Source of the DNA: Longimonas halophila
GTDB taxonomy: Bacteria > Bacteroidota > Rhodothermia > Rhodothermales > Salinibacteraceae
Length of the DNA stretch: 64,000 bases
NCBI RefSeq assembly: GCF_002554705.1
Contig: NZ_PDEP01000003.1
Location: forward strand, 62,001 to 126,000
Reading direction: 5' to 3'
Both the position numbers and the translations under genes were made by a program. Positions 3,043 to 63,707 of the stretch are shown here, one piece after another. How positions within the stretch are numbered: position 1 is the first letter of the stretch; the number at the start of each line of letters is the position of its first letter. The notes under the pieces are model-generated. The model was not told where the DNA came from, ran no database searches, and saw nothing but the letters and a program-made list of their open reading frames with translations.

Positions 3043-4356
3043 CTACACCGTCGCAAAATCGTACAGCGGGAATGTGTCGCAGAGCGCTTGCACCTCGCTG
3101 CGCACGGCCTGCTGTACGTCTTCGTTGGATGGGTCGGCCAGCACGCGGTCAATGAGAGCGGCCACGCGGCGCAGTTCATCGGGACCAAAGCCGCGCGTGG
3201 TCAGCGCCGGCGTGCCCAGACGGATGCCGCTCGTTACAAACGGGCTCTTGTCGTCGTACGGAACCATGTTTTTGTTCGTGGTGATGCCGGCTGCCTCCAG
3301 CGCCTGTTCGGCTTGCTTTCCGGTCAGGTCCTTGTTACGCAGGTCTACCAGTACCAGGTGGTTGTCGGTACCACCGGATACGAGATTGTAGTCACGCTCG
3401 ATGAGCGCCTCGGCCAGCGCCTGCGCGTTGTCAACGATCTGCTGCGCGTATGTCGTAAAGTCGTCTTGCAGCGCCTCTCCAAAAGCTACCGCCTTCGCTG
3501 CAATCACATGCATCAGCGGACCGCCCTGTGTGCCGGGGAAGACACCCGAGTCGAGCACCTCGCCCAGCATCTTGGTGCGTCCGCTCTTGCGGGCGGTGAT
3601 GCCAAACGGATTCTCGATGTCGTTACCGACCAGCATCATTCCGCCGCGTGGACCACGAAGCGTCTTATGCGTAGTCGTCGTTACGACGTGCGCGTAGGGC
3701 ATCGGGTCGTTCATGACCTCTGCGGCTATGAGTCCTGCTGTATGGGCCATGTCCATCCAGAGCAGCGCGTCTACTTCATCGGCAATGTCGCGGAATGCCT
3801 CGTAGTCAAAGTCCCGCGGATACGCACTGGCCCCAATCGAAATCATCTTCGGCTGCACCTCGTGGGCTTTGTCGCGCACCTTGTTCATGTCGATGCGCCC
3901 GGTATCCTTCTCTACGCCGTAGAACGCCGCCTCATAGAGAATGCCGGAAAAGTTGACTGGACTGCCATGCGTAAGGTGGCCGCCGTGGGCCAGGTCCAGG
4001 CCGAGCAGCTTATCGCCTGGCTCCAGCGCCTTCAGGTAGAGCGCGGCATTGGCCTGCGCCCCCGAGTGCGGCTGCACGTTGACCCAGTCGGCGCCAAACA
4101 GCTTCTTGGCGCGGTCGCGGGCCAGATCTTCCACCACATCGACGTGCTCGCACCCGCCGTAGTAGCGCTTGCCGGGCAGGCCCTCGGCATATTTGTTGGT
4201 GAGCGGCGTGCCCATGGCTTCGAGCACAGCGCGCGATACGAAGTTTTCCGAGGCAATCATCTCAAGCCCGTCGTTCTGCCGATCCACCTCGTTTTGGATG
4301 GCGGCGTACACGTCGGGGTCTTGTGTGGAGAGTGCATGCTGAGGCAGGGTAGACAT
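3043..4356 (-). CDS. glyA: Serine hydroxymethyltransferase
   Basis: A 437-residue, full-length GlyA. It converts serine and tetrahydrofolate to glycine and 5,10-methylene-THF using PLP. Visible motifs are the N-terminal [21 protein letters not shown]-type region, [15 protein letters not shown], the PLP-lysine motif [16 protein letters not shown], and [17 protein letters not shown]. The start at ATG 4356 gives the normal N-terminus. It follows the DUF4359-like gene at 68 nt in the minus-strand run; no glycine riboswitch fits in that gap. Confidence 0.98.
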
Positions 4357-4424
4357 AAGGTGTCCAAAAACAGGTGAGTAAAAGGAGTCAGAATGGATAC
4401 GCAGGTACGGTATACGGAGCAGCG

Positions 4425-4745
4425 CTACTCCTTGGCCTCCAACTGTACGAACCGGTCAGCAATGCCGAGCCACTTCAGGTCGGGCTGCTCATCGCCGTCG
4501 ATGTCGATGGTGTAAACGCTGGCCACGAAGTAGTTGGTGCGCATCGTGTACTCGTCGGCGCGGTTAGCCAGAGCGGTACCGGCTACGCTGCCCAGCGCAT
4601 CCCCAAGCCAGGAATCGCTGCCCACCTCGTTGCGAATGAGCGTAGCAGCTTCGTCTTCAACGTGCGCTTCGAAGGCCTCTATACCGGGATTCGTGTATAC
4701 GAGCAGGCCGACAAGCACGAGAAGAAACAGGGTGGAGATGCGCAT
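4425..4745 (-). CDS. DUF4359-like exported/membrane-anchored small protein
   Basis: 106 residues. An uncleaved signal anchor, [19 protein letters not shown], begins the protein; the soluble part ends in a conserved-looking block ([12 protein letters not shown], then [13 protein letters not shown]). The NP motif just after the membrane segment and the late YTID...LGIA...F pattern resemble DUF4359 proteins, whose function is unknown. The start follows the DUF4159 gene by 40 nt, so the two are probably co-transcribed ahead of glyA. Family assignment is from memory of the motif pattern and is moderately sure. Confidence 0.7.
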
Positions 4746-4785
4746 GGCGGTTGATGGTTCGAGTCAGGAAAGCGCACAAGTACGT

Positions 4786-5493
4786 TTAGTGGGTGAGTGC
4801 GTAGGTGAGCACGTTCACACCCATCTCGCGGGCGGTGCGGCGCAGATCGGCAGGCGTGTCGTGCACCGAGGCCGGCTCCCACCCATCGGTAATGTTGGAT
4901 TCGTGCAGGTAGTACACCACCACGCGTCCGTCGTGCACAAGACCAAAGCCTTGTGGGGCATCGCCATCGTGCTCATGAATCTTGGGCGGACCGTCCGAAA
5001 AGTCGTACGGGTGGTGATAGATCGGATGGTCGTACGGCAGCTCAACCAGCTCCTGATCCGGGAAAACCTTGGCGAGTTCCGGGCGGATGTACTCATCCAG
5101 CCCGTAGTCGTCGTCAATAAGCAGAAAACCGCCGGTTTCCAGGTAGTGGCGCAGGCGCTCGGCCTCGCGGCTGGTGAAGCGGACGTTGCCATGTCCGCTC
5201 ATCACCAGAAACGGATACGTGTACAGCCGATCGGCTCCCAGCTCGACTACGTCGCCCTCAGGGGCCACGTCAATGGCGGTGTGCTCGCGTACAAACGACA
5301 AAAACGTAGGCAGCGGCGTCTCAGCCTGGTACCAGTCGCCCCCGCCCCCGTACTGCAGCGCCGCAATGCGCACATGCGGGTCATCGTTTGGCGCGTAGCT
5401 CGGTGCTTGGACTGCAGGCGGCACCGTGCTCCACGCGCCCAGCGTCAGGAGCGCAAGCAGCAGGCCCGTTATGCGAATCAGCCGCTGTGTCAT
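4786..5493 (-). CDS. DUF4159 domain-containing exported protein
   Basis: 235 residues from ATG 5493, chosen because a good signal peptide (RLIRITGLLLALLTLGAWSTV) follows it; an upstream in-frame ATG (5580) adds only low-complexity residues. The mature part contains YGGGGDWYQ, FLVMSGHGNVRFT, YLETGGFLLIDDDYG and YPYDH/HPIYHHPYDF, typical of DUF4159, which has a Rossmann/glutamine-amidotransferase-like fold of unknown activity. The protein is probably periplasmic. It heads the minus-strand run leading to glyA and tatC. Confidence 0.88.
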   Translation of the reverse strand: MTQRLIRITGLLLALLTLGAWSTVPPAVQAPSYAPNDDPHVRIAALQYGGGGDWYQAETPLPTFLSFVREHTAIDVAPEGDVVELGADRLYTYPFLVMSGHGNVRFTSREAERLRHYLETGGFLLIDDDYGLDEYIRPELAKVFPDQELVELPYDHPIYHHPYDFSDGPPKIHEHDGDAPQGFGLVHDGRVVVYYLHESNITDGWEPASVHDTPADLRRTAREMGVNVLTYALTH

Positions 5494-5656
5494 GGCGTTT
5501 TGTGATGAATCCAACAAACAACAAGGCACCGGTTGGCACGCTACGCTATACGCCGCCTTGCAGCGCATGTGCCGAACCATCCGACGCCCCCTGATGTTAG
5601 GTGTGGATACGTCTGTACTCCTATGCTCCTGTGTCCTTCAACGGATTCCTCTGCTT

Positions 5657-58007: not shown

Positions 58008-58307
58008 ATGGATATAACAACGCGTTCTGACGCGCTTGACACCTTAGTAAACCGTGTGCAGCAGATCCTTCCTGCCGAGGTTTACCTGCTCGATGCGCAT
58101 CCGTACGAGAGTGACGATGGCAACTTGCATATCGCGGTCATCGCAGATGCAGATGATGACATGCTCAATGGGGCCCAGCCCGCAATTGCTTCGGCGGTTG
58201 AAGAAGCAAACATTGCTCTCGGGTTCAATCCGCTTCTGGTATATCATATCGGTCAGCGCCATAATCAACTTGCCTCGATAGCAGAGAAAGAAGGAATACG
58301 GTTGTGA
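58008..58307 (+). CDS. MNT-like nucleotidyltransferase-fold protein, degenerate
   Basis: 99 residues. Size and position (immediately before a HEPN gene) fit the minimal nucleotidyltransferase antitoxin family, but the catalytic GS...DxD pattern is not preserved: the equivalent stretch reads VYLLDAHPYESDDGNLHIAV. The end IGQRHNQLASIAEKEGIRL resembles MNT tails. Likely inactive as an AMPylating enzyme. Overlaps the HEPN start by 4 nt (GTGA). Confidence 0.65.
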   Translation: MDITTRSDALDTLVNRVQQILPAEVYLLDAHPYESDDGNLHIAVIADADDDMLNGAQPAIASAVEEANIALGFNPLLVYHIGQRHNQLASIAEKEGIRL

Positions 58308-58669
58308 GTCAAATCTCGACATATGAATGGCTTGATAGTGCCAGCCGACGTCTGGGAGATGCTCGTCTCCTCGTTGCGCATGACCGTCCGGAAACAGCAC
58401 TCTCAAATGTGTACTTCGCTCTGTTTTATGCTTGCAAGGCTCTTCTTCTGCATAAGGACCACGATTACAAGACCCACAGTTCGGTTATAGGAAATATAGG
58501 GCGTTTTTCCAGCTACCGGACACGCCTTGATACTGGGCTTCCTGCACAACTGCAGACCGAGCGTGCACGCTGTGATTACGAACTGGTATCTTATCCACGG
58601 GCTTATGTCGAACGGAGGGTACGAGAAGCCCAATCTTTTATCGAAGCCTCTCAGGCGATTGTACAGTAG
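58304..58669 (+). CDS. HEPN domain protein (UPF0332-like)
   Basis: 121 residues starting at GTG 58304, translationally coupled to the MNT-like gene. NVYFALFYACKALLLHKDHD, KTHSSVIGNIGRF and RCDYELVSYPR follow the UPF0332/HEPN plan (MYFAAFYAAKALL; THSGVI; R..aDY). The Rx4-6H RNase motif is not seen. With its partner it looks like an MNT/HEPN toxin-antitoxin-type module; activity is uncertain. Confidence 0.82.
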   Translation: MSQISTYEWLDSASRRLGDARLLVAHDRPETALSNVYFALFYACKALLLHKDHDYKTHSSVIGNIGRFSSYRTRLDTGLPAQLQTERARCDYELVSYPRAYVERRVREAQSFIEASQAIVQ

Positions 58670-58761: not shown

Positions 58762-59367
58762 ATGATTACTTCAGTCGATCCACCGCGCATCACGGTGCAT
58801 CCGTATCGCTTCACCTACGAGAAGGTGCTTGCCATGGCTGAAGCAGGCATGCTGCCGGAGCACGAACATGTAGAACTCATCGACGGACAGCTTATCCCTA
58901 TGACCCCCGTTAACCGTCCGCACTACAAATGCGTAAATCGCATGACGCGTCGCTTCGTCGTGGCCACAGAAGCAATAGATACAGCCGTCACGGTTAGCGT
59001 GCAAAACCCGCTGCACCTCGATGCGCACAACGTGCCGGAGCCAGACCTGACGCTTCTACGCGGACCCGATGCGGATGCGACCGCTGATGCGGCCCTGCTC
59101 GTCGTCGAAGTCTCGGACACGACCCTGGCCTACGACCGCGATACGAAGCTCCCGCTCTATGCCGAAGCCGAGCTCCCCGAGGTGTGGATCGTGAACCTGC
59201 AGGCGCGTCAGGTGGCGGTCTACCGCGAGCCGAAAGGCCCCGCATACGGGCTGCGGCGGCTGGTGGATGCAGAAGACATGCTCTCCATCAAGACCCTTCC
59301 GGATGCGGAGCCGATTGCTGTATCCGACATCTTGCCTCCTCCCGATGCCTCGGATGCGGATTCGTGA
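58762..59367 (+). CDS. Uma2 family protein (restriction-endonuclease-like fold), first copy
   Basis: 201 residues. RFTYEKVLAMAEAGMLPEHE, the acidic residue in VELIDGQLIPMTPVNRPHY, VPEPDLTLLRG, LLVVEVSDTTLAYDRDTKLPLYAEAELPEVWIVNL: the Uma2/DUF820 PD-(D/E)XK-like core (E-x-ID, PD, ExxxxT...K). Function of Uma2 proteins is not established; many are multi-copy. Paralogous to the gene at 60628. Confidence 0.93.
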   Translation: MITSVDPPRITVHPYRFTYEKVLAMAEAGMLPEHEHVELIDGQLIPMTPVNRPHYKCVNRMTRRFVVATEAIDTAVTVSVQNPLHLDAHNVPEPDLTLLRGPDADATADAALLVVEVSDTTLAYDRDTKLPLYAEAELPEVWIVNLQARQVAVYREPKGPAYGLRRLVDAEDMLSIKTLPDAEPIAVSDILPPPDASDADS

Positions 59368-60456: not shown

Positions 60457-60558
60457 AGGCGGTTTACATTGGGGGTTGTACAGAATTGAGTGGATGCGCG
60501 TAACGTACAACACGCCGTGCGAGAACGCAAGCTCTGCACGCTGGCTCCGCCCCTTCAC

Positions 60559-60605
60559 CTGAACCCAACGTTATCCCAGTTCGTTATCCTTGCACATCCT
60601 TTACG
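60559..60605 (+). promoter_or_regulatory. 47-nt shared upstream element, copy 3 (divergent)
   Basis: Begins CTGAACCCAACGTTATCCC and ends TTCGTTATCCTTGCACATCC plus TTTACG. It keeps the length and spacing of copies 1 and 2 (22 nt before the ATG) but matches them less well in the middle. Confidence 0.45.
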
Positions 60606-60627
60606 GACCCAACATCATGCATCCGCT

Positions 60628-61251
60628 ATGACCACCCGAGTCGATTCGCCGCGTACCACCATGCGCCCGTATCGCTTTACGTACGAGGAGGTGCTTCGCA
60701 TCGCTGAAGCCGATATGCTGCGCAAACACGAGAATGTAGAACTGATCGACGGGCAGCTTATCCCCATGAGTCCAGTTGGAGATCCACACGTCAGTTGTGT
60801 AAATCATCTCACGCGCCTGCTCGTCGAACGCACAACATCCAACGTGATGGTCAGCGTGCAGAATCCGCTCCGAATCGACGCTCACAACGCTCCCGAGCCC
60901 GATGTCGTCGTAACTACACAGCACGATGGGGCTCCAACACCTGCCACCACGCTTCTCGTCGTTGAAGTTTCAGACACCACGCTCACCTACGACCGCGATG
61001 TCAAACTCCCCCTCTATGCCGAGGCCGAGATTCCGGAGGTGTGGATCGTAAACCTGGAGGCGCGCCAGGTGGAGGTCTATCGCGACCCCTCGGGCCCGGA
61101 TTATACCGTGCGCCTGCTGCGCGATGCCCCCGCGACGGTAGACGTTGCCGCGCTGCCCGACATCGCGCCGATGGCGGTCAGCAGTATGCTCCCACCTGAA
61201 GACGCCGCCAACGCCTCCCCCGAGCGCACTATCGACTCTGATTCTACATGA
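60628..61251 (+). CDS. Uma2 family protein, second copy
   Basis: 207 residues from ATG 60628. Same architecture as the first copy: YRFTYEEVLRIAEADMLRKH, VELIDGQLIPMSPVGDPHV, APEPDVVVTT and LLVVEVSDTTLTYDRDVKLP then LYAEAEIPEVWIVNLEARQV. The two proteins are clearly paralogous along their length, implying a duplication that also covered their upstream regions. Confidence 0.93.
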   Translation: MTTRVDSPRTTMRPYRFTYEEVLRIAEADMLRKHENVELIDGQLIPMSPVGDPHVSCVNHLTRLLVERTTSNVMVSVQNPLRIDAHNAPEPDVVVTTQHDGAPTPATTLLVVEVSDTTLTYDRDVKLPLYAEAEIPEVWIVNLEARQVEVYRDPSGPDYTVRLLRDAPATVDVAALPDIAPMAVSSMLPPEDAANASPERTIDSDST

Positions 61252-61740: not shown

Positions 61741-62025
61741 TCAAAATAGATTAGTGACGTTGTAAATATCTACTTTTTGTGCGCCCGAGGAGTTGGTGCG
61801 TATGCCGTATGCTTTTCCGTCTTTGACAACTTGCAGGAAGACAATTCCTTCTAACGTAAACTCCGACAACTGCTGGCCACTTTCATCAAACACGCGATAT
61901 GTGGTATTTCCTTCGTCGAACGCATCGGGATCATTCACGGCAATCCAGATTCGATTTTCTGTATCCACAACCATGTGCTCAAATGCAGGCATGGCATCAG
62001 GGGCCTCACGCCGCAGTTGCTCCAC
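61741..62025 (-). pseudogene. 6-bladed beta-propeller protein, C-terminal part after frameshift
   Basis: About 95 codons from a GTG; the same frame is open upstream to about 62055. Its residues (EQLRREAPDAMPAFEHMVVD, TENRIWIAVND, YRVFDESGQQLSEFTLEG) are the final blades of the propeller encoded next to it in another frame. Joining both by removing one base from the four-G run (minus strand; 62048-62051) gives one protein of about 370 residues, the usual family length. Confidence 0.75.
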
Positions 62026-62041
62026 CTGGTCTGAAGATAAC

Positions 62042-62869
62042 TCAGATCCCCATCCGCTGTATCTCGGTCTCCAACAACTCCTCTGTAACGGGTATAGAAG
62101 TGTGATTGTCTTCTACTACAGTCGCTGTATTTCCATTAACAGGACTGACGCTCTGAATCTCGATCCGTTCATTCATCCCATATAGGATGTCCCCGTCTTG
62201 ACCAACTGTAACGACGGGACGTTTGCCAAATGGCATGAGACGTACGGAAAAGCCTCCGTTTTCGAACACAATAAACTCTCGATCAGGAAGCGTGGCTACG
62301 GGATTTTCTTCTCCAAGAAAATGAATATGGATGGCCCGATCTTCATTTCGATTGCTCGGACTAAAGCCGCGTCCTGATACAACCACTTTTTCCCCGTCAG
62401 GCAACACCCAGATTCCGTGTAGCCCGACCAACGGGCCTCCAATCATGCTGGAGCTGAGTCCGTCGTCGCGCGATGGAATGGACGTGGTGGTACTCCGACT
62501 CATGTTGTCCGTGGGAAATGCGACAATCCGGCGGGCCGCACGGTCGTGTACAAACAGCGAATCGTTCGGCCCCATGTCCATACCAGAGATCGACTGAAAC
62601 TCTCCTGGTCCTTGCCCACGCCCTCCGAACGAGTCGTCGTATGATCCTTCTGAAGTGTATCTGTGCACCTGCATGTTGATGTAGTCGCCTACATAGACCC
62701 TGCTTTCTTCGTCTACAGCAATGCCTTGAATCAGGCCAATGCGCTCGTCCCCGATCTGAGCCTCGGGTTGATGCGGATCATCTGGAAGCCCCAGTCCAAA
62801 TAAGCCCACAAGCAGAGCGATGACGGATATGGAGGTGCTCATAACTGAACTTGTCTCTGTAGTTAACAT
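62042..62869 (-). CDS. 6-bladed beta-propeller protein, N-terminal part (frameshifted gene)
   Basis: 275 codons ending in a premature TGA. A signal peptide (STSISVIALLVGLFGLGLP) is followed by NHL-like blades: LIQGIAVDEESRVYVGDYIN, FGGRGQGPGEFQSISGMDMG and NERIEIQSVS. Resembles secreted 6-bladed propeller proteins of Bacteroidota. The start ATG (62869; ATG 62842 possible) overlaps the stop of the Cys-rich peptide gene by 7 nt, indicating coupling. See the C-terminal part for the frameshift. Confidence 0.8.
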   Translation of the reverse strand: MLTTETSSVMSTSISVIALLVGLFGLGLPDDPHQPEAQIGDERIGLIQGIAVDEESRVYVGDYINMQVHRYTSEGSYDDSFGGRGQGPGEFQSISGMDMGPNDSLFVHDRAARRIVAFPTDNMSRSTTTSIPSRDDGLSSSMIGGPLVGLHGIWVLPDGEKVVVSGRGFSPSNRNEDRAIHIHFLGEENPVATLPDREFIVFENGGFSVRLMPFGKRPVVTVGQDGDILYGMNERIEIQSVSPVNGNTATVVEDNHTSIPVTEELLETEIQRMGI

Positions 62870-63150
62870 GGATTCCTACATGCAAGTATCGCTTCTGGGC
62901 ACTCACATTCTTGTGGACCAGCACTGCAACCAGAGCATGTACAGCAAGCTCCTGACCCTGCGCAGCATTCAGGGGTATCGTCATTGATAAACGTACCCGC
63001 CAAAGTTCCACCGGTATCATTTGAGCCACACATATCTGCAACCTTCGCAGAAACAGCAGAGCGCGCAACCAGAAGGTCAGGTCCTTCTACAACTTCCACC
63101 TCTGGATTGTAACGAATCTCTTCGCCTTCAAAGGACGCGTTACTGTCCAT
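62863..63150 (-). CDS. Cysteine-rich small secreted-type protein (start codon unclear)
   Basis: 95 codons from ATG 63150. Eleven Cys fall in the last 55 residues (41, 62, 63, 69, 70, 72, 75, 82, 84, 91, 95), with clusters ECCAGSGACCTCSGCS and a terminal NPC. In frame upstream of the ATG is a signal-peptide-like stretch (LRHSVVPIFIVAITLIFSGF), but no ATG/GTG/TTG precedes it before a stop near 63245; the true start may use another codon or be lost. Bacteroidota have small Cys-containing peptides (NVEALA type) beside beta-propellers; the relation is inference. Confidence 0.6.
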   Translation of the reverse strand: MDSNASFEGEEIRYNPEVEVVEGPDLLVARSAVSAKVADMCGSNDTGGTLAGTFINDDTPECCAGSGACCTCSGCSAGPQECECPEAILACRNPC

Positions 63151-63707
63151 GACAAAGCCAGAGAAGATGAGTGTTATAGCAACTATGAAGATGGGAACTA
63201 CACTATGTCGAAGCCTATCTCTTTGGTGTTGGTGAACTTTTGATTATGACACACCACACCTTAATGGGGGGGCAGAAACTCAATGATTTAGACTCGTGAA
63301 ATGTGAAATTACAGGCAGTGCAAAAGACGTATGCACCACACCGAGCATGTCTACGATGCGGACGTCAGTCCTATGGCGTAGCACATCCCAGTGCACTGTC
63401 ACACGTGATTGTTTAGGTCGTTTGAGCGCACGGTCTCCCTCTCCAGGGGAGCGATTCGGAGCTTGCTTCTTTACCCTACACGTCAAGGTCATCCTGCCCC
63501 CCGACGACTGGCCGGGGGAAGGATCTCAATGCTCCCCTTGCACATGGGGCACCGGCTTCAGGAGCGGGCACGCTATAGCCCAGGAACTTGGCCTGAACAC
63601 CGCCCGGGACGTGCGCTGCGCTTCCAGTCCCGGGCTACAGATCCCTAAACACGTACTCTTCTCCTGGGAGAAGAGACTCAATACGTGAGGCAATAGCCGG
63701 GGCCCTC
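63151..63707. other. Intergenic region with palindromic repeats
   Basis: 557 nt. The first 95 nt may encode the signal peptide of the Cys-rich protein (minus strand). A seven-G run lies near 63266. CCCGGGAC/GTCCCGGG (63603-63634) forms a perfect 8-bp inverted repeat within a dispersed-repeat-like stretch (AGCCCGGGACTGGAAG on the minus strand). No supported gene. Confidence 0.5.
63656..63675 (-). terminator. Hairpin downstream of holA
   Basis: CTCTTCTC and GAGAAGAG form an 8-bp stem with a 4-nt loop, 33 nt past the holA stop; on the minus strand TACGTGTTT follows. Possible terminator; the T-tract is weak. Confidence 0.4.

Follow-up and report, generated by a model that had tools for sequence, protein, structure and literature searches.

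A probably decayed cysteine-rich peptide and beta-propeller gene pair in Longimonas halophila, and the association of such genes across the class

The minus strand of the window (the whole 64,000-nucleotide stretch analysed here, G000:C3:62001-126000, from a 3.73-Mb genome in 35 contigs that is 92.4 per cent complete) carries a cysteine-rich peptide gene followed by a DUF5128-type beta-propeller gene. The pairing of exported cysteine-rich peptides with propellers of this family is far above chance, and the type of peptide is inherited along with the type of propeller. We put at roughly one half the probability that this locus belongs to a widespread two-gene module and has decayed, the module consisting of an exported, disulfide-rich, bacteriocin-like peptide and a dedicated extracytoplasmic DUF5128-type propeller partner. 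The significance of the finding rests on the class-wide association; the window copy is itself probably decayed. Propellers of this family and small cysteine-bearing peptides are common in these genomes, and both are abundantly annotated as 'unknown function'.

In the list of open reading frames (ORFs), the peptide has an open frame on the minus strand that runs from 63243 to 62863 and encodes, in order, a hydrophobic signal-like segment, an acidic linker and a cysteine-rich end (62866..63030, minus strand). Counted directly from the first cysteine to the end of the frame, this end has 11 cysteines in 55 residues, as the original prediction had stated, with CC and CxC motifs and a core, TPECCAGSGACCTCSGCSAGPQECEC, that matches a peptide encoded next to a related propeller of another family. 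Such density is rare: of 3000 sequences simulated with a first-order Markov model at the same composition, only one had any frame of at least 95 codons that was as dense in cysteine. When the codons upstream of the hydrophobic stretch are read through (TCA AAA GTT CAC CAA CAC CAA AGA GAT AGG CTT CGA CAT AGT GTA GTT ... ATG), no ATG, GTG or TTG is found there. The only start in the frame, ATG 63150, falls past the hydrophobic stretch, and the 95-amino-acid ORF as written (62863..63150, minus strand) therefore has no signal sequence. The codon AGG at 63216-63214 occupies the position where a start would yield a normal signal, and we infer that the ancestral gene began there (62863..63216, minus strand), with a product reading (M)LRHSVVPIFIVAITLIFSGFV-MDSNAS..., and that its start codon has probably been lost. 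The peptide has no match in Pfam or NCBIfam, and none in sequence searches of PHROGs and the PDB. In a search of a 395-genome sample of the phylum, the only match outside its own genome contains stops and looks like chance, and structure prediction gave models without a confident fold (pLDDT 42).

The propeller gene (61741..62842, minus strand) is the next gene on that strand. The Pfam profile PF17170 (DUF5128) matches the window ORF with an E-value of 2.4e-5 and 24.1 bits, over the curated cut-off of 22.9; it scores the counterpart in a congener (genome G398, 95 per cent identical) slightly under the cut-off, at 22.7 bits, and the nearest relative of the window propeller at 54.6 bits. The AlphaFold model of the intact congener protein (pLDDT 85, pTM 0.84) is consistent with a six-bladed propeller, the blade number being read from the strands and from structure matches, and Foldseek matched the model to NHL propellers. 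The original prediction of a six-bladed propeller next to the peptide is thereby borne out. Read from its likely start, ATG 62842, the propeller has a secretion signal. The gene is not a single frame. A GGGG run at 62048..62051 (minus strand; CCCC on the plus strand) has one G more than the congener in the pairwise alignment and causes a frameshift: the window frame stops at 62042 and continues in another frame at 62025-61741, whereas the congener, with GGG at this site, has one intact frame of 366 amino acids (375 if counted from an earlier ATG). Pairwise dN/dS between the two copies is 0.31, and the gene was therefore under constraint.

The two genes had been predicted to overlap by 7 nt and to be translationally coupled, which requires the propeller to start at ATG 62869. 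The nine codons by which this start precedes ATG 62842, however, differ from the congener at 4 of 27 bases, against about 4 per cent elsewhere. Because of this divergence, ATG 62842 (MSTSISVIALL...) is the likelier start, which leaves a gap of 20 nt between the peptide stop and the propeller (62843..62862, minus strand) in place of the overlap; coupling of translation through such an overlap finds no support. At the equivalent site of the congener the peptide gene is absent, and the flanks align around the gap. Loss in the congener appears more likely than gain in the window, since the closest relative of the propeller, which belongs to another family, also lies after a similar peptide. With a peptide start that was probably lost, a frameshifted propeller and a congener that lacks the peptide, the window pair is probably nonfunctional, contrary to what the original prediction had implied; the frameshift or the start loss could be a sequencing error in this metagenome-type assembly.

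The case for a functional link comes from the family as a whole. In regions around propeller genes found in the family, we scored as a pair any propeller with a signal-bearing small ORF of at least four mature cysteines within 150 nt upstream. Such an ORF precedes 18 of the 69 propellers with upstream sequence but only one of the 128 other genes that these regions contain (Fisher P = 1.6e-8; counts from the fetched loci), at least one of the 18 (at locus L078) looking spurious and being dropped from the later comparison of pairs. Examples lie in the window genome (L071, L076 and L077), in the congener (L080) and in other genera (L037, L056, L070 and L084), and the pair L071/L080 is orthologous and kept in both congeners. 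Propellers without a peptide are more numerous than paired ones, about one quarter having a recognised peptide, and many propellers may therefore do something else. Lipidation was considered as a mark of paired propellers and rejected, as a lipobox is present in 17 of 30 paired and 86 of 178 unpaired propellers (P = 0.43). In a set of propellers mostly from Gemmatimonadota, 2 of 167 have such a peptide. One plausible signal-bearing, cysteine-rich peptide outside Bacteroidota/Rhodothermia lies 11 nt before a propeller in Gemmatimonadetes (L228).

A matched pair in another family of the same order ties the window locus to this association. Among about 230 propellers of the class, the closest match of the window propeller (searched with the congener sequence) is a gene of genome G003 (29 per cent identity, E = 1e-55; the next match has 3e-35). 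That gene sits 96 nt downstream of the peptide closest in sequence to that of the window: the two peptides end in NECCSSVGFLIFKKKSCCTCDGPCSASGGDCEC (G003) and PECCAGSGACCTCSGCSAGPQECEC (window) and have in common the pattern ECC..CCTC.G.CSA...CEC. Their local alignment score is 80, compared with 35 +/- 6.5 for shuffled sequences, none of 5000 shuffles reaching 80. The sole clear homologue of the window peptide is therefore found directly upstream of a related propeller and not away from propellers, and homologous pairs, which the original prediction had proposed to look for in other genomes, do occur there. Used as the query of an order-wide sequence search, the G003 peptide retrieved only itself; single-sequence searches find little because the peptides diverge too fast. 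A congener of G003 has kept the propeller and lacks this particular peptide, the same picture as in the window genome and G398. Across 30 pairs, similarity between peptides is correlated with similarity between their propellers (Mantel r = 0.84), as it is across 24 non-redundant pairs (r = 0.65, P = 1e-4). This correlation partly reflects shared operon descent, the two genes travelling together. With the enrichment and the matched pair, it supports the predicted functional link between exported cysteine-rich peptides and this propeller family.

In relatives, the same propellers are found with a second kind of peptide. In Balneola-like genomes (a designation based on our own reading of their lineage), they are preceded by cysteine-rich peptides whose leaders read, for example, MSFAKTLSRNEMKNVKAG or LNRSEMKKIMAGS. 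The leader motif L(S/N)R.EMK.I.AG occurs upstream of 15 of 100 propellers. Of 70 other genes only one has it upstream, in a frame that is spurious; the motif is absent from the window peptide. These leaders match NCBIfam 'bacteriocin-like' leader models weakly, below their cut-offs. In four Balneola-like loci (L129, L134, L136 and L144), peptides with bacteriocin-type leaders alternate with propeller genes, and L129 and L136 additionally encode a Peptidase_C39 ABC exporter, an HlyD protein and a VKOR-Thioredoxin_4 protein. A Peptidase_C39 exporter, HlyD and VKOR-thioredoxin are the equipment that exports and oxidises bacteriocin-type peptides. No Peptidase_C39 was found in the window genome, and export through Sec is therefore expected there. 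One propeller family is paired with peptides of two export types, those with a Sec signal and those with a bacteriocin-type leader near a C39 peptidase exporter. Genes for disulfide enzymes adjoin Sec-type pairs as well: a DsbA gene lies 2 nt after the pair at L133, and a Thioredoxin_4/DsbA-like protein is encoded after the pair at L080. Directly after two further Sec-type pairs (L056:2719-3354 and L036:4383-4958, both on the plus strand), we noted small proteins that have a thioredoxin-like cysteine pattern and match nothing in Pfam.

Among known systems, the pair most resembles the NVEALA (PF14055) pairs, to which the original prediction had likened it. In both, the peptide is small, begins with a hydrophobic stretch and ends in a variable region that bears cysteines; the gene after it, on the same strand, encodes a propeller that the same profile finds. 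The NVEALA motif itself is absent from the window peptide, which is denser in cysteine and has the CC and CxC motifs. The window pair is therefore a variant of the NVEALA-propeller layout, with the layout and without the motif. PF14055 scores over its cut-off in none of the 114 genomes of the order and in 2 of the 395 sampled genomes of the phylum, where most of the matching peptides directly precede a propeller recognised by a profile built in this analysis. Some members of the class have NVEALA-like INEAEA or NDAEA motifs before propellers and are unmatched by PF14055. The window ORF matches PF17170 over its cut-off, and the model of the congener protein agrees with a six-bladed propeller; only the propeller enters into the definition of that family, which is silent on a peptide partner, and the window copy is frameshifted. 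Two Bacteroidota bacteriocin-like families with short GG-type leaders (NF047798 and NF047792) are similar in that related propellers follow such cysteine-rich peptides near a C39 exporter and HlyD, but the N-terminus of the window peptide is Sec-like and lacks a GG-type leader. Profile and fold also match the exported protein BF0058 of Bacteroides fragilis (PDB 4raa), at only about 10 per cent identity; the PDB title names no function. In the literature searched, NVEALA had no match, and DUF5128, PF17170 and PF14055 yielded no paper on the family, the few matches looking like unrelated Plasmodium gene names. A Bacteroides six-bladed propeller appears in one incidental line of an expression table, and no publication on the pairing of peptide and propeller was found in the same literature.

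We propose that the peptide would be exported (by Sec in the window genome and by the C39 exporter in relatives), that its cysteines would be oxidised outside the cytoplasm and that the propeller, as a lipoprotein or secreted protein, would bind its own peptide. The most likely role would be in competition between related bacteria, with the propeller as the partner for self-protection. It is the association over two export routes that leads to this proposal of a propeller that binds and protects. Propellers are more numerous than peptides, much as immunity genes are relative to toxins in orphan arrays, which fits self-protection; orphan propellers suit a receptor or an unrelated role equally well. 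According to Zhang et al. 2012 (PMC3482391), no beta-propeller had been found up to then among the immunity proteins of polymorphic toxins. More tentatively, and as a possibility rather than an expectation, DUF5128-type propellers may form a new class of extracytoplasmic immunity proteins (or cognate receptors) for highly diverse disulfide-rich peptides of Bacteroidota and Rhodothermia, exported through Sec or C39; the NVEALA pairs would then be one of its branches. Several pairs are intact and suited as test objects, among them those at L133 and L071 and the G003-type pair at L139 (peptide 5297-5557 and propeller 4109-5197, both on the minus strand).

Four other explanations have to be set against the exported peptide with a protective propeller partner. 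That the window peptide is a chance frame next to a propeller gene would account for a hydrophobic stretch without a standard start before it and for the gene's being missing in the congener, but we consider it very improbable, given the similar peptide beside the nearest propeller relative (not equalled in 5000 shuffles) and a cysteine density matched just once in 3000 simulated sequences. The CC and CxC motifs would suit a protein that binds metal or has a redox function, or one that forms part of the surface, with the propeller as its scaffold. The export signal and the adjoining disulfide-forming enzymes in relatives suggest, however, that the cysteines are oxidised, and strong diversification is ill-suited to a housekeeping metal binder, so that this role seems decidedly unlikely.

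Two further readings keep the partnership and change its purpose. The peptide could be a secreted signal (a pheromone) and the propeller its surface receptor or carrier. Peptide and propeller diversify in step, propellers kept without peptides could be eavesdropping receptors, and propellers commonly bind peptides. Yet none of the neighbouring genes examined was recognised as a regulator or kinase, and it would be unusual for a signalling system to have many different pairs lined up in long arrays within a single genome (L129, L134 and L136); we regard a signalling role as unlikely. The propeller could instead act on the peptide as a processing enzyme or a folding chaperone, as adjacent gene order, co-inheritance, the structural likeness to NHL propellers (virginiamycin B lyase among them) and the profile similarity to peptide-amidating lyase might suggest. 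Among 28 propellers compared, however, few polar residues and no histidine are conserved, and the invariant positions are mainly structural (a GxGPGE motif, D53 and W299), so that the family appears, from this alignment, to have no conserved catalytic-looking set of residues. A dedicated processor would also not explain why propellers persist where the peptide has been lost, and we consider processing quite unlikely. The carrier or processor put forward in the original prediction is possible, but the frequent persistence of propellers without a peptide weighs against it, and the arrays with C39 exporters favour a partner for binding or self-protection.

Reading along the minus strand, the pair is preceded by a DNA polymerase III delta gene (identified by Pfam on the congener) and about 400 bp that contain dispersed repeats (63585-63656 and 63390-63559), elements present at 38 places in the window genome and 16 in the congener. 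The intergenic DNA between the delta gene and the peptide gene was considered as part of the system and rejected on account of these repeats. Elsewhere in the window, two plus-strand genes at 58008-58669 overlap by 4 nt and encode a 99-amino-acid protein without a Pfam match, which we take to look like a nucleotidyltransferase, and a HEPN-domain protein (PF05168); they are likely a toxin-antitoxin pair of the HEPN-MNT type. Two nearby Uma2 family proteins (PF05685) are encoded on the plus strand at 58762-59367 and 60490-61251; as listed, the latter ORF has the longer N-terminus.
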